DNA of 39,206 bases from a virus. Positions within the stretch are counted from its first letter, which is position 1. Every line of letters starts with the position of its first letter. Both the position numbers and the translations under genes were made by a program. Shown here one piece after another: positions 8,040 to 39,206 of this stretch. Under the pieces are notes generated by a model. That model was not told the origin of the DNA, ran no database searches, and was given only the letters and a program-made list of their open reading frames with translations. Location: positions 1 through 39,206 of the IMG/VR virus record IMGVR_UViG_3300025093_001119; one strand, written 5' to 3'.

Positions 8040-9251
8040 ATGAAGGCTAGCCAATCAAATACTAGCAGATCTTTATTTCAAACGATAGATTATAAAGAAA
8101 ATTGTAAAAGTAAGTTTTACTCACTAGAAGAGATTATTGATGATATCCCAGAGGGTCAAGAGCTTATTACTTGGAAGTACAATAGGCATATAAAAGATCC
8201 AGAAAATCACGATTATGCATTTATTTGGGCCCAAGGCAGCGACCTTGATGATCTTTGTCCTGAAGATATGAAGAAGCAATTTGATGCAATGCAAAAACGC
8301 TTTTTAGCTTTTCATATATCTTTTCAAGAAGCAAAATTAGATAAGGATGAGATCTGTTTCTATGATACTCTCCCTGTGAAATTCTTGAAAGATTGGTGCG
8401 AAATGAAGAATCAAATTTGCAGAGAAGTAATCAAAAACCCCAAGCCAGAAAATTATGAATTTCAAAAAAAGTTATCTTTTTTGATTGAGAAAATAAAGAA
8501 TAGAACTTTAAATTTAGATTGGTCACAACTCAACAAGGCGAGTAAAAAGACTCCAGCGCTATTGAAAATCAAGAATAATGATAGAAATAGAATAGTCTAC
8601 AATCAGTATGGAACTGCAACTGGGCGCCTTTCTACGAATTTCGATTCTTTTCCTATTCTGACTATTGACAAGCTTAACCGCACTATTATAAAGCCAAAAA
8701 ATGATTTATTTCTAGAACTGGACTACAATGCTGCAGAACTTCGAACACTCCTATCTATTACGGATAAAGAGCAGCCAGATATAGATTTACACTCTTGGAT
8801 CAATTCTGAAATCTACAAGAATAAATACAGCAGACAGGATGTGAAGCAAAAAGTTTTTGCGTGGCTATATAATGCCAATGCTAACAACAAAAGATTAAAT
8901 AATTTATTCGAACGTGATAAAATAATAGATGAATTTTACGATGGAAAAAGTGTCAAAACACCATTTGGTAGGACCCTAGAAGTTGATAAAAGAAAAGCAG
9001 TTAATTATTTAATACAAAGTACAACTAGTGATATTGTTTTGCGACAAGCTTTAAAGATAGATGATTATTTAAAAGATACAAAATCTTTCATCTCATTTGT
9101 TATGCACGATAGCATCATAATAGATATTAGCAGGGATCAGCAAGCAGATGTTTCAAAACTTGTATCGATATTTTCTCAGACAGATCTAGGTAATTACAAA
9201 GTCAACATATCGCTTGGTAAAAATTATGGCACTATGAAGAGGGTAGAATGA
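8040..9251 (+). CDS. Short family A DNA polymerase, no exonuclease domain
   Basis: Residues ~185-403 carry the polymerase motifs of family A in order: TGRLS (194-198); motif A LELDYNAAELR with D228, E233 and R235; the O-helix pattern R265-x3-K269-x3-F273-x3-Y277; NYLIQSTTSDI (322-332); and motif C VMHDS with H356 and D357. The usual HDE of motif C is HDS here (S358). Both metal-binding aspartates are kept, so activity is plausible. At 403 residues there is no room for a proofreading domain, and the first ~180 residues match nothing I recognise. F273 corresponds to the Phe762 position of E. coli Pol I. A Pol III alpha gene is also present, so this enzyme may serve gap filling, repair or a specialised replication step. 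AGGGG precedes the ATG. Confidence 0.85.
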   Translation: MKASQSNTSRSLFQTIDYKENCKSKFYSLEEIIDDIPEGQELITWKYNRHIKDPENHDYAFIWAQGSDLDDLCPEDMKKQFDAMQKRFLAFHISFQEAKLDKDEICFYDTLPVKFLKDWCEMKNQICREVIKNPKPENYEFQKKLSFLIEKIKNRTLNLDWSQLNKASKKTPALLKIKNNDRNRIVYNQYGTATGRLSTNFDSFPILTIDKLNRTIIKPKNDLFLELDYNAAELRTLLSITDKEQPDIDLHSWINSEIYKNKYSRQDVKQKVFAWLYNANANNKRLNNLFERDKIIDEFYDGKSVKTPFGRTLEVDKRKAVNYLIQSTTSDIVLRQALKIDDYLKDTKSFISFVMHDSIIIDISRDQQADVSKLVSIFSQTDLGNYKVNISLGKNYGTMKRVE

Positions 9252-14280: not shown

Positions 14281-15645
14281 ATGACTGAGGGTATAGATTT
14301 TTCCAAATACGGAAAAGCATTTCAAGAATCACTAGCACAACTAATCTTTGAAGATCGTCCTTTTTGCGATCAGATTGAAGAAGTGTTGGATATTAACTTC
14401 TTTGAGCTAAAGTATTTGCGTGCCTTTATTGAACGAGTGTTTGATTACAGGAAACAGTACGGTGTACATCCCTCAACAAGTGTATTTACTTCAATTCTTC
14501 GTACAGAGTTAGAGCATTATTCACCAGCGCTACAAAAGCAGATTCGCGATTACTATGCGCGCTGTGAGGCAAGAGATGTTCAGGACCAAGAGTATATTAA
14601 GGATACAAGCTTGGACTTCTGTAAAAAGCAAAAACTAAAAGGCGCTCTTGTACAATCAGTTGAGCTTATTCGTAGTTCTTCTTTTGACGAAGTAAAACAA
14701 GTAATTGACGAGGCTCTTAAACTTGGAATGGACAATAACTTTGGTCACGATTTTCTAAAAGACTTTGAGTCTCGTTATGAAATCAAGGCTCGCAATCCTG
14801 TGTCTACCGGCTGGGATAAGATTGATAGCATCACCAAGAAGGGTATTGGAACAGGCGAGCTAGGTGTTGTTATTGCCCCCACAGGAGCCGGTAAATCAAT
14901 GGCTTTGGCTCATTTAGGGGCTACTGCCGTGAAGAATGGTAAGAATGTCGTACACTATACTCTAGAGCTATCAGAGGCTGTTACAGGGCAAAGATACGAC
15001 AGCTGTACAACAAGCATTCCTTTATCGCAGCTTTTTGAGCGCAAAGATGAAGTGTTTGAAAACATTACAGATATTGAAGGTTCTCTGATCATTAAAGAAT
15101 ACCCAACAAAGACCGCATCACCTAATACAATAAGAAAACATCTAGAAAAATTAAAAAAACAAAATCGAAAAATCGATATGATTATAGTAGATTACGCCGA
15201 TTTGCTTCGTCCTGCTAAAACTTATAAGGAGAAAAGGAACGAGTTGGAATCTATTTACGAAGACTTGAGAGCGATTGCCCAAGAGCAGCATTGCCCAATT
15301 TGGACAGCATCTCAAACAAATAGATCAGGATTGAATGCTGAAGTAGTAACAATGGAGTCAATTTCGGAAGCTTTTAACAAATGTTTTGTCGCAGATTTTA
15401 TTTGTTCTATCTCTAGAACCATTAAAGATAAGAACTCTAATCAAGCACGAATGTTCGTTGCCAAGAATCGTAATGGGCCGGATGGTCTTATCTTTTCAAT
15501 GCATATGGACACATCTTGTGTGAAGCTACAAGTTATTGACAAGGCCGAGATTGGTAACGTTATTCCGGCAGATAATCCTGGAGATTTAAATCAGAAGCTT
15601 AGAGATAAATATAAACAATACAGGAAACAAGGAGCAACAAGTTAA
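14281..15645 (+). CDS. Replicative DNA helicase, DnaB/T4 gp41-like
   Basis: The 454-residue protein has an N-terminal helical domain (~1-165) and a RecA-fold motor. Motor motifs are Walker A APTGAGKS (199-206), the H1a glutamate in HYTLELS (E229), Walker B MIIVDYADLL (D304), WTASQTNRSG with Q345, and the arginine-finger segment VAKNRNGPDG. It would unwind the fork as a hexamer. No primase was recognised in this window. Its stop overlaps the RNR start in a TAATG junction. Confidence 0.92.
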   Translation: MTEGIDFSKYGKAFQESLAQLIFEDRPFCDQIEEVLDINFFELKYLRAFIERVFDYRKQYGVHPSTSVFTSILRTELEHYSPALQKQIRDYYARCEARDVQDQEYIKDTSLDFCKKQKLKGALVQSVELIRSSSFDEVKQVIDEALKLGMDNNFGHDFLKDFESRYEIKARNPVSTGWDKIDSITKKGIGTGELGVVIAPTGAGKSMALAHLGATAVKNGKNVVHYTLELSEAVTGQRYDSCTTSIPLSQLFERKDEVFENITDIEGSLIIKEYPTKTASPNTIRKHLEKLKKQNRKIDMIIVDYADLLRPAKTYKEKRNELESIYEDLRAIAQEQHCPIWTASQTNRSGLNAEVVTMESISEAFNKCFVADFICSISRTIKDKNSNQARMFVAKNRNGPDGLIFSMHMDTSCVKLQVIDKAEIGNVIPADNPGDLNQKLRDKYKQYRKQGATS

Positions 15646-17501
15646 TGGAGATTTCATCAAAAATTTTATCAGATATCACAGTTTATATGAAGTATGCGCG
15701 CTTCCTAAAAGAAGAAAATCGTCGTGAAACTTGGGAAGAACTAGTTACACGCAATAAAAATATGCATTTGAAAAAGTATCCTCAATTGAGTGAAGAAATT
15801 GAAAATGCTTATCAGTATGTCTATGACAAAAAAGTATTACCATCAATGCGTTCCATGCAATTCGGCGGCAAGCCAATTGAAGTCGCTCCTAATCGCATTT
15901 ACAATTGTGCTTACCTTCCCATTGATCATGAGCTATCTTTTAGCGAGACAATGTTTCTCTTACTTGGGGGAACTGGTGTTGGATTTAGTGTTCAAAAGCA
16001 CCACGTTGAAAAACTTCCTGAGATTCAAAAGCCGCTACAGAAACGAAAAAAGCGATATTTGATTGGAGATTCAATTGAAGGCTGGGCAGATGCTGTAAAG
16101 GCACTGCTAAAAACTTACTTTCACGGCGGTACCCCACTAAGATTTGACTTTTCTGATATCCGTCCAAAAGGCGCATCACTAGTTACTAGTGGAGGCAAAG
16201 CCCCCGGTCCACAGCCTTTGCGAGAGTGTCTCGTAAAGATTGAAGGATTATTGTCTGAGAAGGAGAATGGCGATAAATTACGTCCTATTGAAGTTCACGA
16301 CATCATTTGTCATATTGCTGATGCTGTTCTTGCCGGGGGGATCCGTAGGGCTGCTCTTATATCATTGTTTTCGGCAGACGACGAAGAAATGCTCGCCGCA
16401 AAAGCAGGAAACTGGTGGGAAACAGACCCTCAACGAGGAAGAGCAAACAATTCAGTAGTGCTTCTACGTCACAGGATCACTAAAGAGTACTTTATGAACC
16501 TTTGGGATCGTGTTAAGGCGTCTCAATCAGGTGAGCCCGGCTTCTATTTCTCCAATGACAAGGACTGGGGCACAAATCCTTGCTGCGAGATTGCTTTACG
16601 TCCCTATCAGTTCTGTAACTTGACCGAGGTTAACACTTCGGACCTAGAAACACAGAAAGAGTACGACGATCGGGTCAAGGCTGCTAGTTTAATCGGCACA
16701 CTACAGGCTGGATACACAGATTTCCACTATCTTCGCGACATTTGGCAAAAACAAACTGAAAAAGAGGCTCTAATCGGTGTTTCAATGACTGGTATTGCTT
16801 CTGGTAAGGTTGCCGAGTTGGATATGAAGAGGGCAGCAAATGCAGTCAAGCGAGAGAACGCAAGAATTGCTAAAATTATTGGAATCAAGTCGGCAGCCCG
16901 CTGTACAACTGTAAAACCAGCTGGTACCACATCTTTGACTCTAGGCACATCTAGTGGTATTCATCCCTGGCACGGTGATTACTACTTGAGAAGGATTAGG
17001 GTAGGCAAAAACGAGTCAATTTACACTCACTTGCTTATACACCACCCAGAATTGATTGAAGACGAGTATTTTAGACCACACGACACTGCTGTTATCACCG
17101 TACCGCAAAAAGCCCCTGAAGGGGCAATTACTCGCAAGGAAAGCGCACTACAGCTCCTTAAGAGGGTCAAGCACGTTACTGAGAACTGGGTTCAGCCGGG
17201 AACAAGGCGAGGTCAAAACACACATAACATTTCAGCAACAATTTCAATAAGAAATGACGAGTGGGTTGATGTTGGTGACTGGATGTGGGAAAACAGAGAG
17301 TTTTATAATGGATTGTCTGTCTTGCCTTTTAATGACCACAACTATGTTCAAGCACCATTTGAAGAATGTTCAAAAGAAAAATACCAAGTTCTATACGATA
17401 CCTTGGAAGAGGTTGATTTAACTGAAGTTATTGAATACGAGGATAATACAGACCTTAAGGGTGAGCTAGCTTGTGCCGGCGGAGCCTGTGAGGTAAAATA
17501 A
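15645..17501 (+). CDS. Monomeric class II (B12-dependent) ribonucleotide reductase
   Basis: The 618-residue protein matches the monomeric adenosylcobalamin type (Lactobacillus leichmannii RTPR). Cysteine spacing supports this: C88 in YNCAYL, C313 in NPCCEIAL (thiyl position) and C324 in FCNLTEVN reproduce the 11-residue spacing of C408 and C419. The C-terminal C610/C615 pair reproduces the C731/C736 spacing of the recycling shuttle. GGTGVGFS and KPAGTTSLTLGTSSGIH (GTTS) are nucleotide-site motifs. It would reduce ribonucleoside triphosphates without oxygen, using cobalamin from the host. It is shorter than the 739-residue Lactobacillus enzyme. It ends the replication operon; a promoter follows. 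Confidence 0.92.
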   Translation: MEISSKILSDITVYMKYARFLKEENRRETWEELVTRNKNMHLKKYPQLSEEIENAYQYVYDKKVLPSMRSMQFGGKPIEVAPNRIYNCAYLPIDHELSFSETMFLLLGGTGVGFSVQKHHVEKLPEIQKPLQKRKKRYLIGDSIEGWADAVKALLKTYFHGGTPLRFDFSDIRPKGASLVTSGGKAPGPQPLRECLVKIEGLLSEKENGDKLRPIEVHDIICHIADAVLAGGIRRAALISLFSADDEEMLAAKAGNWWETDPQRGRANNSVVLLRHRITKEYFMNLWDRVKASQSGEPGFYFSNDKDWGTNPCCEIALRPYQFCNLTEVNTSDLETQKEYDDRVKAASLIGTLQAGYTDFHYLRDIWQKQTEKEALIGVSMTGIASGKVAELDMKRAANAVKRENARIAKIIGIKSAARCTTVKPAGTTSLTLGTSSGIHPWHGDYYLRRIRVGKNESIYTHLLIHHPELIEDEYFRPHDTAVITVPQKAPEGAITRKESALQLLKRVKHVTENWVQPGTRRGQNTHNISATISIRNDEWVDVGDWMWENREFYNGLSVLPFNDHNYVQAPFEECSKEKYQVLYDTLEEVDLTEVIEYEDNTDLKGELACAGGACEVK

Positions 17502-17812: not shown

Positions 17813-18085
17813 ATGAATTTTAAACCTTGTAACAGACATCTACTGATTGATCCAATTGAAGAAGACCAAATAGAGCAAACAGGAATTCTTCTGCCTGATG
17901 AGTATAAGTCTAAAAATCCATTTAGCGTCGCACGAGTGATTGGAAAATCAGCAGATTGTAACTTAAATGTTTTTCCTGGAGAGAAAGTCGCTTACACTAC
18001 TAATATGGTAGAAAATATTACTATTGGTGGAAAGGAGTATTTTATTCTTTTAGAGAATTATGTATTGGGGATCTTAAATGAATAA
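17813..18085 (+). CDS. groES: GroES-like co-chaperonin (Cpn10/gp31-like)
   Basis: In 90 residues it shows the Cpn10 layout: a first strand (PCNRHLLIDPI), a mobile loop ending GILLP where GroES has its hydrophobic GroEL-binding tripeptide, strand FSVARVIGK, the VFPGEKVAYT turn, and the C-terminal IGGKEYFILLENYVLGIL. It would cap a chaperonin ring. The same phage encodes a GroEL, about 20 kb away at 38001, so both partners are phage products. It overlaps the glutamine synthetase start by 8 bases. Confidence 0.85.
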   Translation: MNFKPCNRHLLIDPIEEDQIEQTGILLPDEYKSKNPFSVARVIGKSADCNLNVFPGEKVAYTTNMVENITIGGKEYFILLENYVLGILNE

Positions 18086-19151
18086 CAATAAAAAAGAAAA
18101 TTTACTTAAACTAGAGTATGTTTGGATTGATGGGGCAAAGCCCTGGGGCTTGCGTTCGAAAATTAAAGTTGCCAGGGTTTCAGATGAAACACTTAATGAA
18201 ATGTTAACTGAAAATAGTCCAGCAGATCTTCCAATGTGGGGATTTGATGGATCTTCCACTAATCAAGCTGTTGGCGATGATTCAGATTGCATTTTAAAGC
18301 CGGTATATGTAACGACTAATCCTCTTGATGATGACAATGGTGCCCGATCGTTCATAGTTTTGTGTGAGGTTTTGAATTCTGATAATTCGCCGCATGAAAC
18401 GAATGCACGAGATCATCTTGTTTCATTGGCTGCACAGACTGCCAATTCTAAGCCCGCCTTCGGCCTAGAACAAGAATACACTATAATTGATCAAGGGCGC
18501 CCACTGGGCTTCCCTAAAGATGGCTATCCTGCTCCTCAGGGAATATATTATTGTTCAGCAGGAGGAGATCGAGCATTTGGAAGAAAAGTTTCAGATGATC
18601 ACTTAGATGCATGTTTAAAAGCCGGCCTAGACATTAGCGGCACTAATGCTGAAGTAATGCCAGGACAGTGGGAATATCAAATCGGTGGCCCAGATATTGA
18701 CGCGATTGCAGTTAGTGACCAGCTTTGGGTTTCTAGATGGCTATTGTTGAAAATAGCCGAGAGACAAAATCTAACAGTTACTTTTGATCCAAAACCTATG
18801 CTTGGTGACTGGAATGGCGCAGGCTGTCATGCAAATTTCTCCACCGAGCAAATGAGGACTGCCCCAGATGGAATCAACCACATAAAGAGTGCGTGTGATA
18901 AAATGGCTATGAATGTTGAAAAACATCTGGAGTGCTATGGTGACGGAATAGAATTGCGTCTAACCGGCGATCATGAGACTTGCAGCTACAAAGAATTTAA
19001 GTGGGGCGTTGCAGATAGAACAGCTTCAATTAGAATACCAAGATCGGTAGCCATTGATGGGTATGGATATCTGGAAGATAGAAGACCAAATGCAAACTGT
19101 GATCCCTATAAAGTTTGTTCTGTTCTGTTAGAAACTATTTGTGAGGTTTAA
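18078..19151 (+). CDS. Glutamine synthetase, type II
   Basis: This 357-residue protein matches the eukaryote-like type II glutamine synthetase by length and motifs: WGFDGSSTNQA, FGLEQEYTI with metal-binding glutamates, MPGQWEYQIG, NGAGCHANFST, GVADRTASIRIPR and LEDRRPNANCDPY. All expected active-site segments are intact. It forms glutamine from glutamate, ammonia and ATP, supplying nitrogen for purine, CTP and amino acid synthesis. No adenylylation site is expected in this type, so it would escape the host control that acts on type I enzyme. Its stop is followed at once by the ThyX start. Finding it in a phage is unusual. Confidence 0.93.
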   Translation: MNNNKKENLLKLEYVWIDGAKPWGLRSKIKVARVSDETLNEMLTENSPADLPMWGFDGSSTNQAVGDDSDCILKPVYVTTNPLDDDNGARSFIVLCEVLNSDNSPHETNARDHLVSLAAQTANSKPAFGLEQEYTIIDQGRPLGFPKDGYPAPQGIYYCSAGGDRAFGRKVSDDHLDACLKAGLDISGTNAEVMPGQWEYQIGGPDIDAIAVSDQLWVSRWLLLKIAERQNLTVTFDPKPMLGDWNGAGCHANFSTEQMRTAPDGINHIKSACDKMAMNVEKHLECYGDGIELRLTGDHETCSYKEFKWGVADRTASIRIPRSVAIDGYGYLEDRRPNANCDPYKVCSVLLETICEV

Positions 19152-22012: not shown

Positions 22013-22870
22013 ATGAATATTCATGATTTAATTGGAAATACTCCAATTGTTGAACTAAAATCTAATATTTTCGCGAAGTTAGAAACTTTTAACTTGTCGG
22101 GAAGCATTAAGGATCGGATCGTACTATATATACTCGATAATGCTGAAAGGAAAGGCTTAATTAATGAAAACACTATTTTGGTTGAAGCAACGAGCGGGAA
22201 TACTGGTATTGCTCTCGCTATGCTGGGTTCTATAAAGAACTATAAAGTTAAGATTATAATGCCCTCCAATATGTCTGAAGAACGCAAACAGCTTATGCGT
22301 CTCTACGGGGCAGAAATAATTGAAGTTGGACACAATGATTTTCCAGGCGCAATTGAACTAAGGAATAAGCTTGTCCAAGAGAATGATAATTGGTGGTCTC
22401 TAAACCAATTTGAGAACCCTCTTAATGTTGAATGCCACGAAACCACAACTGCGAAAGAAATAATAAGACAAGTGTTTATTGACCGTAAACTGGAGCCAGA
22501 CGTCTTAATTTGTGGCGCAGGAACTGGTGGCACCATAATGGGCGTGGGAAGGGCTCTTAAACGAATTAACAAAGACATTAGGATCATACAGGTCAAGCCG
22601 GCTGAAGATGCCTTAAATCACGGTATACAGGGCATTGGAGACGGTGGTGATTATCTGGTAGATCCTGAATTTATTGAAGAAGTTATCTTTATCAAAACTG
22701 AAGATGCGATCGCCAAGGCCAAAGAACTTTCATCAAATGGCTTGCTGGTGGGCATAAGTGCCGGCGCAAATGTATTAGCAGCAGAGCAGATTGCCAAGAC
22801 ACACAAAGGTGCTGGAGCAATTATTACATTCTTGTGCGATCGCGGTGAAAGATACATGAGCATTATGTGA
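22013..22870 (+). CDS. cysK: Cysteine synthase (O-acetylserine sulfhydrylase)
   Basis: This 285-residue PLP enzyme has the cysteine synthase motifs in order: IGNTPIVEL, the PLP lysine in NLSGSIKDR (K33), EATSGNTGIALAM, the phosphate-cup loop ICGAGTGGTIMGVGRALK, and GLLVGISAGAN. It makes cysteine from O-acetylserine and sulfide. It is slightly shorter than bacterial CysK/CysM (about 300-320 residues) but the catalytic core is complete. With glutamine synthetase nearby, the block looks designed to relieve sulfur and nitrogen limits during infection. GAGGA precedes the ATG. Which of CysK or CysM it is closer to was not determined. Confidence 0.9.
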   Translation: MNIHDLIGNTPIVELKSNIFAKLETFNLSGSIKDRIVLYILDNAERKGLINENTILVEATSGNTGIALAMLGSIKNYKVKIIMPSNMSEERKQLMRLYGAEIIEVGHNDFPGAIELRNKLVQENDNWWSLNQFENPLNVECHETTTAKEIIRQVFIDRKLEPDVLICGAGTGGTIMGVGRALKRINKDIRIIQVKPAEDALNHGIQGIGDGGDYLVDPEFIEEVIFIKTEDAIAKAKELSSNGLLVGISAGANVLAAEQIAKTHKGAGAIITFLCDRGERYMSIM

Positions 22871-23160
22871 TGTATAAGCCTCTTCCCTCTTTTCTGACAA
22901 TTAAAAAATCTACAATCCACGGCTTGGGGCTCTTCACAGAGAAAGATTTATTTTCTGATATTGTGCTTGGCATCACTCATATAAGAGATGAACGCTTTGA
23001 GGATGGATATATAAGAACGCCACTGGGAGGCTTTTTTAATTCTTCGCAAAACCCCAATTGTGAAGTTATTCATATTGGTGACTTTATCTTATTAAAGACT
23101 ATAAAAGATATAGAAGCATTTGAAGAACTAACTGCTTCGTATACTTTATATGAAATCTAA
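22870..23160 (+). CDS. Mini SET-domain protein (putative lysine methyltransferase)
   Basis: About 96 residues hold a SET domain: KSTIHGLGLFTEKDL at the start, the NHSxxPNC-like segment LGGFFNSSQNPNC in the middle, and EELTASYTLYEI at the end. Canonical NHS is NSS here. It lacks the pre-SET and post-SET parts of long enzymes. SET proteins methylate lysines, usually in proteins, using SAM. The ATG at 22870 overlaps the cysteine synthase stop (TGATG); a GTG at 22867 would add one residue. The substrate is unknown, and loss of activity is possible. Confidence 0.7.
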   Translation: MYKPLPSFLTIKKSTIHGLGLFTEKDLFSDIVLGITHIRDERFEDGYIRTPLGGFFNSSQNPNCEVIHIGDFILLKTIKDIEAFEELTASYTLYEI

Positions 23161-23170
23161 TATCTATCCC

Positions 23171-23201
23171 TTTACTAGACTAAAAACGTTCCTATAGTAT
23201 A
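23171..23201 (+). promoter_or_regulatory. Sigma70-like promoter before the restriction-like cassette
   Basis: TTTACT (23171-23176) and TATAGT (23193-23198) are 16 bases apart, with the extended -10 TATAGTATA. It sits in the only gap in this region and directly precedes the cassette. An alternative -10, TATACT at 23198-23203, would have a poorer -35. Confidence 0.45.
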
Positions 23202-23227
23202 CTCAAGTGTTACTAAAAGAGGTTATT

Positions 23228-24139
23228 ATGATGCTTATTGAAGATAGGACTGTACTTAAACAGAAATCACTTACGCCAACTGCACTTGGATTAGACGGAT
23301 TTTCCGGCACTCGCGCTGAACTATTAGATAAGATTCCTTGGAACAAGCTTAGTCCGCGTACTAGTCAAATATTTAAAGAAGCCCTTAATGGCAACTTTAT
23401 TTACGATGAACATAAAGACTTTTTAAAAATTAATAAAAATAAAAATCGCAAAGTTCTTTTTGCGGATGGAGGAGAGATTTTAGTACCTTTGTTGTTGACT
23501 GCCGATAAGCCAACAGCGATTATTTCTTTTCCGGATACCAGCAATGCTAAAATTTATGATGTATTCATTGATGGAGAAGGTCTTGCTGTAAAATTAGATA
23601 AAGGAGCAACAACCTCCATGAACCAAGAGCCAATAAAACATTTTCTAAATGAAAATAAAGATAATAATAAATATACTGGCGCTTTGTACAGGTTAGCCAC
23701 AATGTCTACTAAAGAGGGCAGAATTTCAGCACATAAGCATTTAGGTCTCCCCGGCTATAAATTTAAAAGCAAAGAGCACTTAAGCGCCGAGCTAGGGAAT
23801 ACTTCCTGGGAAGAGTTCCGTGAGCGCTTCCCGGTTTATTATCGAGAATCTAAAAAAGCATCAAAAGCTTTCACAAAAGAGAATTATAATAATTCTAAAA
23901 TTCGAGACAATTTTGTATATTGGGCTATGGGCAGATTAATTGATCAAGCATTTCAAGGCGAGGGCAATAATTGGGTTACAAAAGCAGCACAGCAGATTGC
24001 CGGCAGTTACGCACATTTCAACCCCAAGACTATGAAAGTTTCTGTGGCACCGTTCAACGAGAGGAGATACCGTCTAGTACATCACCAGGGGCTAAAAGTA
24101 TCTTGCAGGAACAAAGCGCCGTTTACCCCTGAATATTAA
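23228..24139 (+). CDS. Unknown protein with possible nuclease core, first gene of cassette
   Basis: The protein is 303 residues from the ATG at 23228; AGAGG at 23218-23222 supports this start or the ATG three bases later. Residues 110-125, YDVFIDGEGLAVKLDKG, place an aspartate (D111) and a lysine (K122) on adjacent strands, as in PD-(D/E)xK nucleases, where a Asp..(E/D/S)xK pair binds metal. E117 lies between them. This is a weak pattern and the rest is unlike any nuclease I recognise. Its context gives it weight: a helicase and a methyltransferase follow in the same operon, so it is the natural candidate for the cutting or recognition subunit. Confidence 0.5.
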   Translation: MMLIEDRTVLKQKSLTPTALGLDGFSGTRAELLDKIPWNKLSPRTSQIFKEALNGNFIYDEHKDFLKINKNKNRKVLFADGGEILVPLLLTADKPTAIISFPDTSNAKIYDVFIDGEGLAVKLDKGATTSMNQEPIKHFLNENKDNNKYTGALYRLATMSTKEGRISAHKHLGLPGYKFKSKEHLSAELGNTSWEEFRERFPVYYRESKKASKAFTKENYNNSKIRDNFVYWAMGRLIDQAFQGEGNNWVTKAAQQIAGSYAHFNPKTMKVSVAPFNERRYRLVHHQGLKVSCRNKAPFTPEY

Positions 24140-24149
24140 AGAGGAACAT

Positions 24150-25853
24150 ATGTTAGATAAAAAATATAAAAAGATAGTTAAAGAAATTGAAAAAAAAGGC
24201 GATTATCCTAGAGAGACCATTAATGCAGCAGAAGAGGCGTTTTCTTATATTAAAGAAAACAAAGAGAAAGGCTCGATGCTGAGTCTCGACGCGCTCCCGC
24301 AATCTGGTAAAACTTCAACGATGGAAACAGTCGCGCATATGCTCTACCTAGATGATCCTCGCAGTATTATCGTAATTTCGAGTCCAGCAGATAAAGCTTT
24401 AAACGAGCAAACCACAAATAGACTTGAGAAAGCAGGCCTTACGTTTCACGCTTATCGTGGCTCGATGAAAAAGACCCTCAAGGCCTCCTTAAAGGGTGCT
24501 GAGCTTTATAAAAGAAATCCTCCTGAGTATCTCGAAGATTTGCGAGGTCATGACTGTTTTATACTTGAGCCGGGTTGTGTGGTTATAATCGATGAGCATC
24601 ACTACGGATCAGCAAAAAATAGTATATTGAATCAAGTATTTTTAGCGCAAGGCTTCGACTTATCCAAATCACCCGATCAATGGCCATTTCCAATTCATAT
24701 TGTTTTTGTTAGCGCCACGCCTTTTGATCTTTGTATTGAAAATAAAGAAATTAAGCGTGTTGTTTTGCAGACGTCTTGTGATTATACTGACTTCAGCGAT
24801 CATGATATAAAAGATAATTTTGTTATTAGGGAAAACTATGATGAATTTATAGAGATATTTTCTGGTTTTCTGGAAAAAGGGAATCAGTATAATTTAGCCA
24901 GACTGAATAATCGTGGAAAAAATAAAGTTACAGTAGACGAGATTATCAATAGTCTTTTAAATAAGGGGAAAAAAGGATACGCAATTCCAAAAGATCAAGC
25001 TGATTTTAGCCACAAAGCACTTGAAGACGCTGATTTTATTTATTTAGAAATTAATCAAAAAAGCAGTGACTTTCAAAAAAGTTTTGTAGGAGCGGACCAA
25101 GAGCCGTTTTTTGATAAAAAGCCAAAAAAGCCAACGTTTATCTTTATCCATAGTTATTTCAAGCAAGGCCACACTTTTACCCGTAAACCTTATATTGGTG
25201 GAGTTTTTGAAGATTGTAGTAAGGCTCGCGAAAAGAAAAAACAGAAAGGCACACAACAGGATGACAACATTGTACAAAGCCTAGCAGGTCGTTTATGTGG
25301 CTATCACAAGCCGCCAGATAAAGAAATATATACTGATGTATCTAGCATAGAAAGATACATGCGCTGGTACAATGGAGACTATAAATATGATCAGATACCT
25401 AACTCTGCAAAATCAAATACAAGTAAAAAAACTTATCTCAAGAAGGCGTATTCAGTTAATTACAGCGAGGTTCAAGATTTTAAAGTATCTAACGCAGTAG
25501 AGAACTGCAAAAAGAAACCAAGGTTTATGGAACGATTGATAAGGGATGAACACAGTCCCGAACTTGCTAATAAATTTATTGAGTGCAGTGGCAGCATTGG
25601 TACCTATAATTTTGATCAGTGGAATGAGAATAATATAGAAAGAAAAATTTATTATAGATCAAAATTAGATAATATCGTCGATGGTAAGTCTCAAGAATGG
25701 CCCGGAAATCACTTTCAAAATAAAGAATGTTTAATTTGGAATGACCCGGAAAATAAAAAGCTTTATCTTATGTTTAAAGAGGATCAATATTATAAAGATA
25801 TTAAAATTTCCAAAAAGAGTATGCATCATTTTAAACAGGAGGTAGCGGCATAA
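24150..25853 (+). CDS. SF2 helicase, restriction-subunit-like
   Basis: This 567-residue protein carries SF2 motor motifs: Walker A LPQSGKTSTM (K54), motif II VVIIDEHHYGS (D148-E149-H150-H151), motif III VFVSATPFDL (188-190), a KQGHTFTRKP segment (~339-347) at the motif V position, and motif VI QSLAGRLCGY (Q376, R381). DEHH rather than DEAD or DEAH places it nearer restriction-enzyme or Z1-type motors than RNA helicases. The ~180 C-terminal residues are Lys/Asn/Tyr-rich and unassigned. It follows the unknown first gene after 10 bases and overlaps the methyltransferase start (TAATG). A DNA-translocating role in restriction or repair is inferred. Confidence 0.75.
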   Translation: MLDKKYKKIVKEIEKKGDYPRETINAAEEAFSYIKENKEKGSMLSLDALPQSGKTSTMETVAHMLYLDDPRSIIVISSPADKALNEQTTNRLEKAGLTFHAYRGSMKKTLKASLKGAELYKRNPPEYLEDLRGHDCFILEPGCVVIIDEHHYGSAKNSILNQVFLAQGFDLSKSPDQWPFPIHIVFVSATPFDLCIENKEIKRVVLQTSCDYTDFSDHDIKDNFVIRENYDEFIEIFSGFLEKGNQYNLARLNNRGKNKVTVDEIINSLLNKGKKGYAIPKDQADFSHKALEDADFIYLEINQKSSDFQKSFVGADQEPFFDKKPKKPTFIFIHSYFKQGHTFTRKPYIGGVFEDCSKAREKKKQKGTQQDDNIVQSLAGRLCGYHKPPDKEIYTDVSSIERYMRWYNGDYKYDQIPNSAKSNTSKKTYLKKAYSVNYSEVQDFKVSNAVENCKKKPRFMERLIRDEHSPELANKFIECSGSIGTYNFDQWNENNIERKIYYRSKLDNIVDGKSQEWPGNHFQNKECLIWNDPENKKLYLMFKEDQYYKDIKISKKSMHHFKQEVAA

Positions 25854-26626
25854 TGAACAAGATAGAATTAAAACAGCAAGACGCATATGAGTTCCTGCAG
25901 GAAATTCCAAACGATTCAATTGATCTTATTTTGACGGATCCTCCCTATGAGATATCTAAGCCGTCTGGGTTTATCGATAGCTTGACAAAGCCTGATGGAT
26001 CCCCCCAATCAGAGAGAACCTTAAGAAGGTTTGGGATTAGTCTGGATTTTGGTGAATGGGATAAGAATGAGCTAAATCTTCTTCCCTATATCCAAGAAAT
26101 GTATAGGATTCTCAGACCTTCTGGCACAATGATTATGTTTTATGATTTATGGAAGATCACCCCTCTCAAGAATATGATGGAAGCTTCGAAGTTTAAGCAG
26201 ATTCGATATATCGAGTGGGTCAAGACCAATCCCGTGCCGATCAATAGCAAGATTAATTATTTGACTAATTCTCGTGAAATTGCCCTAACAGGCGTTAAGA
26301 AGTCAAAGCCAACATTTCATAGCGAATACGATAACGGCATATATAGATATCCCATCTACCATGGTAAAGATAGGTTTCATCCTACACAAAAAAGCCTAAA
26401 GTTGTTCGAGGAATTAATCGAGAAACACAGCAATGAAAATGATACAGTATTGGATTGCTTTTTGGGTTCTGGTACCACAGCTGTCGCTGCGTTAAACACA
26501 AAAAGAAATTTTATTGGTTGTGAAATCGATGATGGTTATTATAATAAGATGGTAGAAAGGATAGAGGAGTATAAAAATGGAACGAACAAAAAGCAAGATT
26601 CCATTCGTAGGGCTTCACGCGCATAG
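25853..26626 (+). CDS. DNA methyltransferase, beta class (N6-A or N4-C)
   Basis: DPPY (29-32, in LILTDPPYEIS) is the catalytic motif IV of amino-methyltransferases. The SAM-binding motif DCFLGSGTTAV (201-211) comes after it, which defines the beta class. HPTQKS (176-181) also fits. The protein is 257 residues and methylates an exocyclic amino group of adenine or cytosine. The start overlaps the helicase stop. Its last ~16 codons run through the start of the Pol III gene, a 50-base overlap, suggesting the end was extended after insertion. A protective partner for a restriction activity, or a lone epigenetic enzyme, are both possible. Confidence 0.88.
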   Translation: MNKIELKQQDAYEFLQEIPNDSIDLILTDPPYEISKPSGFIDSLTKPDGSPQSERTLRRFGISLDFGEWDKNELNLLPYIQEMYRILRPSGTMIMFYDLWKITPLKNMMEASKFKQIRYIEWVKTNPVPINSKINYLTNSREIALTGVKKSKPTFHSEYDNGIYRYPIYHGKDRFHPTQKSLKLFEELIEKHSNENDTVLDCFLGSGTTAVAALNTKRNFIGCEIDDGYYNKMVERIEEYKNGTNKKQDSIRRASRA

Positions 26627-29600
26627 CGTTGTAGGCTCTCCGTTTGATGGATTTGGTTACCCGCAAGATCATATGGATTTTGCATACGAGAATGGCTGTG
26701 ACGCACTAGCGCTCACGGATCACGGCAATATGAACGGCACTTCTTATCAAGTGCTTCACGCCAAGAAGATGAAGGCAGAGGGCAAAGAGTTCAAGCCAAT
26801 TTTTGGCGTTGAGGCTTATTTTGTGCCTTCTATCGCAGATTGGAAGGAAGCTTACGAAGAAGCAAAGACAGACAAGAAGTCTGCTAAGAAACTTGAGAAA
26901 GACGATGGCAGAATGGTTACAGAAGACGAGGGTGCTTCAAAGCAGAAAAGCGACATTATTAAAGAGCGCCGTCACTTGGTTTTGTTGGCGCAGAACCAAA
27001 CAGGCTTAAACAATATCTTTAAGATTGTATCTGAGACACATCAAGGCGACAACTTCTATCGTTACCCTCGCGTTGATTATGATTTACTGGAGAAATACAA
27101 TGAAGGGATTATCGCTTCGTCTGCTTGTTTGGGCGGCGTTTACGCTGGTAATTTTTGGGCTAATCGTGATAACGGACCTGATGCTGTACTAGAGGCAATG
27201 CGCGAGACTACTCGGCGTATGCAAAATATCTTGGGTGATCGCTGGTATGGAGAGCTTCAGTGGAATAATGTACCAGAGCAACACGAGCTAAATCAGTACA
27301 TAATCCAGCTTCACGAAGAGACTGGACTGGAGCTTATTTCAACTGCAGACAGCCACTACCCTAATCCCGCGGCAATGAGGGACCGTGAGCTTTATAAGCG
27401 CCTAGGATATCTCAATCGTCCTAAAAAACCAGACTGGCTTACTTCAGAGTTGCCGATTGATGCTGATGAGCTTGGGATGGATCTCTATCCAAAGAATGGC
27501 GATCAGATGTGGGAAGACTACAAAAAGTATTCCGAAGAATGCCAGGAGGTCTATGACGATGATGTGATTTATGATTCAATCGTAAAAACACACTACATCG
27601 CAAACGAGCGCATTGAAGACTTTATGCCGGATGATACTGTTCGTCTACCTAACTTTGTTGTACCGGAAGGTGCCACAGCTGACGAGGCACTCCTTAAGAC
27701 AGCAATTGCTGGTCTTCGCGAGATGAGTCTTGAAAACGACGAAGAATACACAGAACGTCTTCGTCACGAACTGAATGTTATTGTTGACCGAGGCTTCTCC
27801 AAATACTTCCTAACAATGAAAGCAATTTCTGACAAAGCAAACGATAATATGCTTTCAGGTCCGGGACGTGGATCAGCAGCTGGTTCTCTTGTAGCTTATG
27901 TCTTGGGAATTACGCAAATTGATCCTATCAAGTATGGTCTTCTGTTTAGTCGTTTCTTACGCTCTGATGCGACTGACTATCCAGATATTGACTATGACGT
28001 CAGTGATGCGTTTGGTCTCAAAGAGATCTTGGCTGAAGAGTGGGGCGAGACCAATGTTGTGCCGATTTCAAACTACAATACACTACAGCTTAAGTCTTTG
28101 ATTAAAGACATTTCAAAATTTTATGAGGTGCCTTTCGCAGAGGTGAACGTTGTAACCGGTCGTATGGTCAAAGAGGCAACTCCAAAAGCAAAAGCAGCAA
28201 AAGGAATCAAAGCTGGTCTTTACATTCCGGATTTTGAAGAGCTTATGCTTTACTCTGATTCACTACAGGATTTCTTGTTCAAATATCCACACATTAAAAC
28301 TCACATTGAGGCTTTGTATGGACAGGTGCGCTCTGTGAGTCGTCACGCAGGTGGTGTTGTGATTGGAGAGGATCTAGACAAGCATATGCCACTTATCAAT
28401 CGTGGTGGTGTAATCCAAACACCTTGGTCTGAAGGGCAGAACGTGCGCCATCTAGAGCCACTTGGGTTCATCAAGTTTGATCTGCTGGGTTTGTCAACGT
28501 TGGCTATGATTGAGTCTTGTGTTGGGCACATCCTGCGACGTCACAAAGGTATTGAGAATCCAACTTACCAAGACGTTAAAGAATATTACAACACTTACTT
28601 ACACCCTGACAAAATTGATCTAGATGATAAACAAGTCTATAAGAACATCTTTCACGATGGCAAGTTTGTTGGAGTGTTCCAATTTACAAATGAAGGTGCG
28701 CAAAGATTCTGTAAGTCCGCGAAACCAAACAGTATTATTGATATTTCTGCTATTACTTCAATTTACCGCCCTGGTCCATTGAGCGCAGGTGTTGACCGGT
28801 CTTACACGAAAGCAAAGCAAAATCCTTCCGAGGTTGAGTATGTGAATGACCTTGTAAAGGATGTTACTGAAGAGACAGCTGGTTTCCTGATTTTCCAGGA
28901 ACAAATTGCTTTGCTGGCACACAAGCTTGGCAAAGACTTCAGCCTAGACGAAGGCAACAAGCTTCGCAAGCTTCTTACAAAGAAGGGCACAGGTTCAGTT
29001 GCGAAGGAGAAAGCAAAGCTGGAAAAGAAGTTCCTTGATGGCTGTGTAGAAAAGAATGTTGACTTGACAACAGCGAAACAGCTTTGGAGAAACTTTGAAT
29101 ACTTCTCTGGCTATGGTTTCAACAAGTCACACGCAGTTTCATATTCGGTTCTGTCATATCAGTGTGCATGGCTTCTCAACTACTATCCAGAGTGCTGGGT
29201 GGCAGCTTTCTTAGACAAAGAGCCAGAGTCTCGCAAAGAAGTTGCGATCTCATTGGCAAAGCAGTATGGTTTTGATGTAACTGATATTGACGTTAATACG
29301 TCAGCTGGTACGCACTGGGAAATCAGCGAAGATGGACAGACTCTCATTCAGCCCCTAAGTTCTATCAAGGGCCTGGGTGATGCCGCAATCAAGCAGATTA
29401 TTGATAATCGTCCATTTAAGAACGCTGAAGATCTCCTCTTCAAAGAGGGTGTGGTCTATTCCAAACTGAACAAGAAGGCACTAGATGTATTGTGTCGTTC
29501 AGGTGCCCTAGATGATATAGTGGATGAGTCTTTTACAGGGATGAAACATTTTTGGATGTCTTGTATCCAGAATCGCCCGAAGAATAAAAAGAAGATGCTG

Positions 29601-30011
29601 GAGAATATCCAAGAGTGGTATGATGAGGGCGAGTTCTCTCGCGAGGAAAAGATTGAAAACATTTCAAACCTGACCGGAATTTTTCCCTTTGATATTGTCC
29701 TATCAAGAGATGTTCGCTCTGCTATTCAAAGATATGAAGTTCCAGCGCTAGGCGATTGGGATCCCGAGCTTCAAGCAGCCTGGTTTATTCCGCGAGAGAA
29801 GATTGCGAAGAAGACAAAGAATGGAAAACCTTACTGGATTTTAAAAGTTATTGACAATACTTCAACGGTGAATACTATTAGAGTCTGGGGAGTTGATTCA
29901 AGTAGAGATATATTACATCTCAATCGTCCCTACGGTGCTAAACTACAGTACAGCGAAGATTGGGGATTTAGTTTGAGATTAAATAAGAGTCCTTTAATAT
30001 TATTGGGTTGA
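26577..30011 (+). CDS. dnaE: DNA polymerase III alpha subunit (DnaE-type)
   Basis: At 1144 residues this is a near full-length DnaE. An N-terminal PHP domain starts FVGLHAHS (H14, H16) with LTDHGN and SACLGG further on. The palm has GPGRGSAAGS (428-437), PDIDYD (469-474) and IKFDLLGLSTLAM with D635, matching the three catalytic aspartates of Pol III. LSSIKGLGDAA near the C-terminus is the tandem helix-hairpin DNA-binding motif. It is the likely main replicase. The start has AGGAG seven bases upstream, even though it lies inside the methyltransferase gene. Codon use is less AT-rich than in the cassette upstream. The PHP histidines suggest possible metal-dependent activity. Confidence 0.95.
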   Translation: MERTKSKIPFVGLHAHSVVGSPFDGFGYPQDHMDFAYENGCDALALTDHGNMNGTSYQVLHAKKMKAEGKEFKPIFGVEAYFVPSIADWKEAYEEAKTDKKSAKKLEKDDGRMVTEDEGASKQKSDIIKERRHLVLLAQNQTGLNNIFKIVSETHQGDNFYRYPRVDYDLLEKYNEGIIASSACLGGVYAGNFWANRDNGPDAVLEAMRETTRRMQNILGDRWYGELQWNNVPEQHELNQYIIQLHEETGLELISTADSHYPNPAAMRDRELYKRLGYLNRPKKPDWLTSELPIDADELGMDLYPKNGDQMWEDYKKYSEECQEVYDDDVIYDSIVKTHYIANERIEDFMPDDTVRLPNFVVPEGATADEALLKTAIAGLREMSLENDEEYTERLRHELNVIVDRGFSKYFLTMKAISDKANDNMLSGPGRGSAAGSLVAYVLGITQIDPIKYGLLFSRFLRSDATDYPDIDYDVSDAFGLKEILAEEWGETNVVPISNYNTLQLKSLIKDISKFYEVPFAEVNVVTGRMVKEATPKAKAAKGIKAGLYIPDFEELMLYSDSLQDFLFKYPHIKTHIEALYGQVRSVSRHAGGVVIGEDLDKHMPLINRGGVIQTPWSEGQNVRHLEPLGFIKFDLLGLSTLAMIESCVGHILRRHKGIENPTYQDVKEYYNTYLHPDKIDLDDKQVYKNIFHDGKFVGVFQFTNEGAQRFCKSAKPNSIIDISAITSIYRPGPLSAGVDRSYTKAKQNPSEVEYVNDLVKDVTEETAGFLIFQEQIALLAHKLGKDFSLDEGNKLRKLLTKKGTGSVAKEKAKLEKKFLDGCVEKNVDLTTAKQLWRNFEYFSGYGFNKSHAVSYSVLSYQCAWLLNYYPECWVAAFLDKEPESRKEVAISLAKQYGFDVTDIDVNTSAGTHWEISEDGQTLIQPLSSIKGLGDAAIKQIIDNRPFKNAEDLLFKEGVVYSKLNKKALDVLCRSGALDDIVDESFTGMKHFWMSCIQNRPKNKKKMLENIQEWYDEGEFSREEKIENISNLTGIFPFDIVLSRDVRSAIQRYEVPALGDWDPELQAAWFIPREKIAKKTKNGKPYWILKVIDNTSTVNTIRVWGVDSSRDILHLNRPYGAKLQYSEDWGFSLRLNKSPLILLG

Positions 30012-37819: not shown

Positions 37820-38077
37820 ATGCAAATTTTACCCTTGACAATCATAGTAGTCGCGCTTATATTGATAGGGGTAATTGCGGGAATATTTATTCAAGGTAAG
37901 TTCGAAGCATTACACAATCATATCAACGCAGTCTACAGAGAACTTAAAATAGAGTCGGCTGTACTTGATACAAAAGTCTTACACATAGAACGAGGTTTAG
38001 ATGACACAAGAAAAGACGTCAAAGCAATTTCAGAGCGGGAAGAAGTTACAGACCCAAATTTTGGATGGGGTAAATAA
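37820..38077 (+). CDS. Small N-terminally anchored membrane protein
   Basis: The 85-residue protein starts with ~22 strongly hydrophobic residues (ILPLTIIVVALILIGVIAGIFI), enough to span a membrane. A charged helical region follows (~28-75), likely a short coiled coil, ending in a NFGWGK tail. It could act as an anchor, a holin-like or a spanin-like protein; the sequence does not settle this. Its last 77 bases overlap the start of groEL in another frame. Confidence 0.65.
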   Translation: MQILPLTIIVVALILIGVIAGIFIQGKFEALHNHINAVYRELKIESAVLDTKVLHIERGLDDTRKDVKAISEREEVTDPNFGWGK

Positions 38078-39206
38078 GTTAGCAGATGTTGTTGGTTCAA
38101 CATTAGGACCAAAAGGAAGAAATGTTCTCCTTCACAAGAAGGGAGGCAATCCAATTATCACGAAGGATGGAGTTACAGTCGCAAAGTTTGTTGACTTTGA
38201 AGATCCTTTTGAGAACGCAGGAGCGCAACTAATTAAGCAAGTCGCATCACAGACTGCTAACGTTGCTGGCGATGGTACAACAACTTCAACAATCCTTACG
38301 CGAGCCATCCTCAATAGTGCGCAGAAATACGTCTCTGCGGGCGTTTCTCCGATAGAATTGAAGCGAGGTATGGATAAGGGTCTAGAAGCGATTGTAGGGC
38401 GCCTAGAGAGTCTCTCACGCCCTATTGAATCTCAAGAAGATATTGAGCATATTGCTACAATTTCTGCGAATAATGATCGGTCCATTGGAAAGCTTATCTC
38501 AATGGCAGTTGAGCAGGCTGGTCACGATGGGTCGGTTAGCGTAGAAGACGGCAAATCATTTGAAACAACTTTAGATGTGACTGAAGGTTTTCATTTTGAT
38601 TCCGGCTTTTTCGCAAATGCGTTTATCACAAATCAACGTCGGGGATCCGTTGAATATGATGATCCCTATGTTTTGGTTACCGATCACAAGATTGATAAGG
38701 TTCCCGACATTCTTCCAATTCTTGAGCTAGTCGCCAGAGAAAGCAAGCCTTTGATTATTGTAGCCGAGACTGTAGAAGATCAAGCATTGGCTGCTCTGAT
38801 TATGAATACTGTCCGAGGGTCAATGAAGGTCGCAGCCGTCAAAGCACCACGTTATGGAACAGAACGAAGAGAGATCCTGAACGACTTGGCTATTTCTCTT
38901 GGAGGAACCTTTGTTAGTCGCGAGTCTGGCAAGAAGTTGTCTGATGTTAAGTTGGTTGACTTTGGACAGTGCAAGAAAGTTGATGTCTTAAAGTACAGCA
39001 CAACTTTTGTTGGAGGCAACGCTGACTGGCAGAAAGTTGATGAGACGATTGAAGACCTCAAAGGACAAATCAAGACGAATGATAATATGCAGGATTGCCA
39101 ACGAATGCAAGAAAGGATTACTAGACTTGCGAGTGGTGTTGCGATTATCAAGGTCGGCGCCCCAACCGAAGTTGAGATGATTGAGAAGAAGCATCGCATT
39201 GAAGAT
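38001..39206 (+). CDS. groEL: GroEL chaperonin (3' end outside window)
   Basis: The frame is open for 402 codons to the window edge, with no stop. Motifs of GroEL are clear: GSTLGPKGRNVLL and TKDGVTVAK (equatorial ATP site), NAGAQLIKQVASQTANVAGDGTTTS with the catalytic aspartate in GDGTTT (about D91), SANNDRSIGKL, EGFHFDSGFF in the apical domain, VKAPRYGTERREILNDLAI, and LASGVAIIKVGAPTEVEMIEKKHRIED. The ATG at 38001 has GAGG five bases upstream and lies inside the small membrane protein gene. It would fold phage proteins, probably with the GroES encoded at 17813 or the host's. Full length is expected near 540 residues. Confidence 0.95.
   Translation, partial: MTQEKTSKQFQSGKKLQTQILDGVNKLADVVGSTLGPKGRNVLLHKKGGNPIITKDGVTVAKFVDFEDPFENAGAQLIKQVASQTANVAGDGTTTSTILTRAILNSAQKYVSAGVSPIELKRGMDKGLEAIVGRLESLSRPIESQEDIEHIATISANNDRSIGKLISMAVEQAGHDGSVSVEDGKSFETTLDVTEGFHFDSGFFANAFITNQRRGSVEYDDPYVLVTDHKIDKVPDILPILELVARESKPLIIVAETVEDQALAALIMNTVRGSMKVAAVKAPRYGTERREILNDLAISLGGTFVSRESGKKLSDVKLVDFGQCKKVDVLKYSTTFVGGNADWQKVDETIEDLKGQIKTNDNMQDCQRMQERITRLASGVAIIKVGAPTEVEMIEKKHRIED

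Follow-up and report, generated by a model that had tools for sequence, protein, structure and literature searches.

Based on the gene order of the window and comparisons to the corresponding loci of related phages, we propose, with somewhat better than even confidence, that three genes preceding the DNA polymerase III gene form a phage-borne, ATP-dependent restriction-modification operon expressed together with the replicase, in which DNA cutting and its requirement for ATP are predictions. The restriction-modification reading is favoured because the first cassette gene in relatives is a PvuII-like endonuclease at the same site, and because a homologue of the second protein, P2, is located between endonuclease and methyltransferase in two more distantly related phages (L212 and L230). 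ATP dependence is favoured because both halves of the P2 family profile match Z1-type helicases, as in the CglI and NgoAVII systems, and the operon reading because the promoter is conserved whichever gene follows, and because of the locus census detailed below. The original prediction of a phage-carried restriction-modification-like operon is thereby supported by the pairing of the methyltransferase with an endonuclease in relatives and by a P2 homologue in-between, but loses its nuclease argument for the first protein, P1.

The window, by which we mean the whole stretch of DNA analysed, is a 39,206-base IMG/VR virus record, a fragment of an uncultured tailed phage encoding a tape-measure protein, UvsX, a DnaB-type helicase, a class II ribonucleotide reductase, thymidylate synthase and dUTPase, together with IMP dehydrogenase, a Clp-like protease, an amidase and a Cpn60 chaperonin (38001-39206). 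Judging from the sample sets, which we take to be marine, and from the cyanophage relatives of the PvuII-like endonuclease family, the source phage is probably marine. Dozens of contigs carry a DnaE-like polymerase 62-92% identical to that of the window, which is itself ~30% identical to those of the best-scoring isolated phages. A second polymerase-like protein is encoded at 8040-9251 (phrog_17, E=9e-22) in addition to the DnaE-like enzyme, and a glutamine-synthetase-like gene is present at 18078-19151. The ribonucleotide reductase (15645-17501) has close homologues in Oceanospirillum and Vibrio phages, whose records label them 'recombinase', apparently a misannotation.

Table 1 Features of the cassette and of the adjoining polymerase gene, in window coordinates
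Feature	Position	Strand	Basis
Sigma70-like promoter (probable)	23171..23203	+	TTTACT-16-TATAGT, overlapping TAGACT-16-TATACT
P1, 303 aa, no family match, endonuclease slot	23228..24139	+	Open reading frame with ribosome-binding site
P2, 567 aa, predicted SF2 ATPase/helicase of Z1 type (N-protein-like)	24150..25853	+	Homologues in L212 and L230, Z1 profile match
Beta-class amino DNA methyltransferase (N6-adenine or N4-cytosine), 257 aa	25853..26626	+	Pfam N6_N4_Mtase E=4.7e-37, phrog_67 E=1.4e-62
DNA polymerase III alpha (DnaE-like), last gene downstream of the cassette promoter	26577..30011	+	Pfam DNA_pol3_alpha E=6e-51, phrog_405 E=8.6e-225

The cassette runs P1, P2, methyltransferase and then DNA polymerase III in tight packing (Table 1). 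On re-reading the sequence, the three genes and their motifs were found as previously described, with a 10-base gap between P1 and P2 and a TAATG overlap between P2 and the methyltransferase gene; not described before is a 50-base overlap between the 3' end of the methyltransferase gene and the start of the polymerase gene. P1 starts at an ATG with an AAGAGG ribosome-binding site, and an in-frame GTG is found at 23207. On the upstream side the cassette is adjoined by a gene for a small SET-domain protein (22867-23160; Pfam E=3.4e-6), for which the loci of relatives hold no counterpart.

The promoter proposed originally is, as a 9/12 match by itself, no better than background (13 such matches found in the region versus 12.5 expected), but it is probably real because the same arrangement, TTKACW-16-TATAAT, is aligned at this position in relatives. 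The arrangement precedes the endonuclease gene of L005, L012 and L036, as a perfect TTGACA-16-TATAAT in L005 and L036, and stands directly before the polymerase gene in the cassette-free L003, L004, L006, L007 and L009; five cassette-free relatives, some of them closely related, have TTTACT-16-TATAAT immediately before this gene. The two hexamers and the 16-base spacer are common to the window and the relatives examined, whichever gene comes next. Since the promoter directly precedes the polymerase gene in cassette-free relatives, the cassette has been inserted between the two, and from this location between replicase promoter and replicase gene co-expression with replication would follow naturally, i.e. 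the insertion site predicts that the cassette is probably transcribed when replication starts.

In the polymerase-containing relatives compared, the cargo site is the interval between a cysteine-synthase-like gene (22013-22870 in the window) and the polymerase gene. It contains no gene in L003, L004 and L007-L009, an endonuclease-methyltransferase pair in L005 and L036, and an endonuclease-ParB-like-methyltransferase arrangement in L012; L027 and L076 have a ParB-like gene and methyltransferase but no endonuclease. The first cassette gene in L005, L012 and L036 encodes a small protein of phrog_35715, a family that matches PvuII in Pfam at up to E=4e-4, under the curated cut-off, and whose profile finds PvuII in the PDB at E=2.7e-4. 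The G-x-D...E-x-K active site is present in 71 of 71 collected family members, four of them with longer spacing. The methyltransferase, assigned to the beta class from the outset and confirmed as such by Pfam and PHROG profiles (Table 1), has 5hek/5hfj, named adenine-specific DpnA, as its closest solved structures (E=1.3e-36). Its orthologues at the same site in L005 and L012 are 91-92% identical to it, and those in L005, L012 and L036 together 85-92%.

Scanning with the endonuclease family yielded 80 viral loci. The census took in the window together with 89 endonuclease loci and two loci of the ParB-methyltransferase type. The endonuclease is located beside the methyltransferase, or with one exchangeable gene between them, in 58 of the 89 endonuclease loci, counts that are not independent events as near-identical contigs were kept and a few loci come from a contig that was included twice. 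These arrangements comprise endonuclease-ParB-like-methyltransferase (19), endonuclease-methyltransferase (16), methyltransferase-endonuclease (9), an HNH-bearing middle gene (6), a GHKL ATPase in the middle (3), endonuclease-methyltransferase-ParB (3) and a P2-type middle gene (2); in 30 loci the endonuclease has no methyltransferase of this family in reach, and one was not classed. Outside the 89 are the two ParB-methyltransferase loci and the single P1-P2-methyltransferase arrangement of the window. The middle slot is exchangeable, being empty or filled by a ParB-like, HNH-bearing, GHKL ATPase or P2-type gene.

Several of these loci deserve separate mention. The GHKL ATPase between the PvuII-like endonuclease and the methyltransferase in L067 (14094-15557; also in L208 and L238) is a relative of MzaB, a component of the anti-phage system MZA (NCBIfam E=3.2e-11, PADLOC E=6e-10). 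In L085 (1279-2682) and L086 (2704-4110) the product of the middle gene has ~470 aa and a C-terminus that is weakly HNH/endonuclease VII-like, possibly a second nuclease in the cassette. Cyanophage genes annotated as 'hypothetical protein' in P-SSM2 (L117:3992-4498) and P-TIM68 (L118:3953-4498) belong to the PvuII-like endonuclease family, and that of P-TIM68 comes immediately after a putative methylase.

P1 takes the position of the PvuII-like endonuclease of L005, L012 and L036 and of L212 and L230, and this place in the endonuclease slot is what makes it a candidate nuclease or target-recognition subunit. The D111...K122 nuclease-like pair highlighted in the original prediction does not exceed chance, D-x10-K being found in 82% of shuffled P1 sequences, as is a looser PD-(D/E)xK-like pattern; no nuclease motif recognised in P1 exceeds chance, and no family matches it significantly. 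At the sensitivity used, no homologue of P1 was detected in isolate phages, plasmids, viral contigs, PDB sequences and the retrieved loci of relatives. The anticipated co-occurrence of all three genes in relatives is therefore not seen, as P1 is known from a single contig, where its pairing with P2 and the methyltransferase is seen once, but a P2 homologue and the methyltransferase recur with an endonuclease in P1's slot. AlphaFold runs on single sequences, without relatives, reached a pLDDT of 39 for P1 and 35 for P2, and the models were discarded. A diverged PvuII-like endonuclease was considered for P1 and rejected, as it has no similarity to the endonuclease profile (G-x-D...E-x-K, phrog_35715); likewise, profile similarity to the ParB-like, HNH-type and GHKL middle genes was not found.

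P2 contains PQSGKT (50-55), DEHH (148-151), SAT (188-190) and QSLAGR (376-381), in agreement with the SF2 motor previously deduced from its DEHH, SAT and QxxxGR motifs. Motifs I, Ia, II, III, V and VI are kept in order in the window, L212 and L230, with the conserved forms (P/T)Q(S/V)GKT, LxEQTxxR, DE(H/A)HYG, VSATP, GxT and QSLAGRxxGY, which places P2 in the superfamily. L212 and L230 each encode a 639-aa homologue of P2 (tblastn E=1.7e-29 and 2.1e-28; 27% identity over ~447 aligned columns), whose gene fits exactly into the space from endonuclease to methyltransferase, the junctions measuring +1/-4 and -17/-4 bases. These homologues were reached only via the scan with the endonuclease family; P1 and P2 gave no matches when viral and genome contigs were first scanned with them, and a scan with the P2 family profile returned the L212 and L230 contigs again and no others. 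Neither P2 nor the L212 protein has a homologue in isolate phages or plasmids, no homologue of P2 was detected among PDB sequences at the sensitivity used, and in ~790 bacterial genomes none of its E-values fell below 0.008 and none of its matches was full-length. A motif scan of bacterial genomes yielded 16 matches, none related to P2.

The P2-family profile was compared with 18 bacterial Z1-type helicases fetched via Pfam PF10593, and the two align over motifs I to III (hhalign E=2.8e-6) with a score of 58.7, compared with at most 26.9 for column shuffles and 51.9 for ResIII helicases. The C-terminal half likewise matches Z1 (P=8e-4, 0 of 150 shuffles; P=0.2 for ResIII), spanning motif V RGLTLEGL and motif VI YDTLMQMGRWFGYR. 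Because L212 and L230 dominate this three-row profile, and the C-terminal half of P2 alone is not significant against Z1, the Z1 assignment is family-level evidence; Pfam PF10593 is not significant for P2 alone, and hmmsearch with a Z1 profile does not find the L212 and L230 homologues singly. As judged from sequence, P2 is accordingly an SF2 protein with a distant leaning towards the Z1 family.

The closest parallel is offered by CglI, NgoAVII and BceSIV (PMC4267653). CglI and NgoAVII consist of M, R and N proteins, the last with a Z1 helicase, and cleave DNA site-specifically and ATP-dependently through an R2N2 complex in which ATP hydrolysis by the N-protein is needed for cleavage by the separate R-protein (PMC4267653). 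As in the three systems, the cassette has separate genes for a methyltransferase, an endonuclease-slot protein and an SF2 ATPase with a Z1-type C-terminal half, and the ATPase is separate from the nuclease, here a putative one. P2 resembles the N-proteins, SF2 ATPases with a Z1 C-terminal domain in a gene of their own, distantly and at the family-profile level, and at 567 aa it is shorter than most of the fetched Z1 helicases (628-1004 aa). In contrast, the R-proteins of CglI combine a PLD nuclease with a B3 domain, whereas P1 lacks the PLD motif HxK(x4)D as well as any family match, and the slot in the window's relatives is taken by a PvuII-like PD-(D/E)xK enzyme. Moreover, CglI methyltransferases are 5-methylcytosine enzymes, unlike the beta-class amino methyltransferase of the window, and the cassette, unlike CglI systems, is phage-carried.

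For operons of MORC/paraMORC ATPases, SF2 helicases, RE-fold nucleases and methylases, Iyer et al. (2008, PMC2292703) described Z1-type helicases alongside RE-fold nucleases and GHKL ATPases. These operons and the related MZA system resemble the phage loci in that the middle slot of the latter contains a P2-type SF2 ATPase (L212, L230) or the MzaB-related GHKL ATPase (L067), but the phage cassettes never have both, have an endonuclease and a methyltransferase that are both small and phage-specific, and show no recognised AIPR or VSR gene. Type IIP PvuII shares the D...E-x-K region with the phrog_35715 proteins, which form two-gene restriction-modification arrangements in L005, L036 and P-TIM68; the window differs in having P1 in place of a PvuII-like gene and an added helicase. 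Type III Mod/Res systems also combine a beta-class methyltransferase with an SF2 motor. However, Res has a fused nuclease, whereas helicase and putative nuclease are here in separate genes, the 257-aa methyltransferase lacks the long target-recognition insert of Mod, and the C-terminal half of P2 does not match ResIII helicases. No direct precedent for phage-borne cassettes of this kind was found in the literature searched.

We envisage the following mechanism. The methyltransferase would mark newly made phage DNA. P2, in a role like that of the N-proteins in CglI and NgoAVII, would be the Z1-type SF2 ATPase that works together with P1, the occupant of the endonuclease slot. P1, presumably cutting or directing the cutting, and P2 would then cleave DNA without the mark, i.e. 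the host chromosome or a competing phage or plasmid, in a reaction that likely needs ATP. During lytic infection, the host chromosome, being unmethylated, would serve as substrate first, followed by competitor DNA, and cutting of the chromosome could feed the nucleotide metabolism of the phage.

It is conceivable, though in our estimate unlikely, that P1 is instead a target-recognition or regulatory subunit, in which case the cassette would mark and process DNA and cut it via a nuclease encoded elsewhere, or not at all. The chance-level motifs of P1 fit this, as do the relatives with a ParB-like protein and methyltransferase without endonuclease; against it, the protein at P1's position in other relatives is a PvuII-like endonuclease with intact catalytic residues. 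These same ParB-methyltransferase loci (L027, L076) imply that the methyltransferase is not necessarily part of a restriction system, and P1 could be located beside P2 and the methyltransferase by accident, as the site is a cargo hotspot, which counts against the operon we favour. A stand-alone anti-restriction or epigenetic methyltransferase, with P1 and P2 as an unrelated cargo pair (e.g. for recombination or DNA repair) in the same hotspot, nonetheless strikes us as rather improbable: the methyltransferase is retained while its partners change and has relatives in over a thousand phage records, but the genes are translationally packed, and coincidence explains poorly why P2 homologues in two other phages are located between an endonuclease and a related methyltransferase. 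Least plausible by far is an abortive-infection or anti-defence module of P1 and P2, suggested by a match of P1 to Pfam AbiGi at E=0.016, under the curated cut-off; fetched AbiGi proteins align no better to P1 than to its shuffled versions, 70 of 200 of which reach the score, so that a relationship is largely refuted at the sequence level.

Extending the restriction-modification reading, P1 might, more tentatively, found a new nuclease family working only with a Z1-type ATPase, and the cassette might belong to a large phage-specific restriction-modification class in which one methyltransferase is combined with interchangeable nucleases and NTP-driven modules (Z1-type SF2, GHKL, ParB-like, HNH-bearing), inserted in this lineage between promoter and replicase gene.

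Restriction is commonly viewed as something directed against phages. In the lineage examined here, made up of uncultured and apparently marine phages, the genomes carry what are predicted to be complete restriction-modification cassettes, in this clade under the replicase promoter. The alternation of ATPase, ParB-like and nuclease modules in the middle slot provides a natural series, which allows one to ask what a simple PvuII-like enzyme gains from Z1-type and MutL-like ATPases, and raises the question of whether a lytic phage may employ restriction for digestion of the host chromosome or for the exclusion of rivals.
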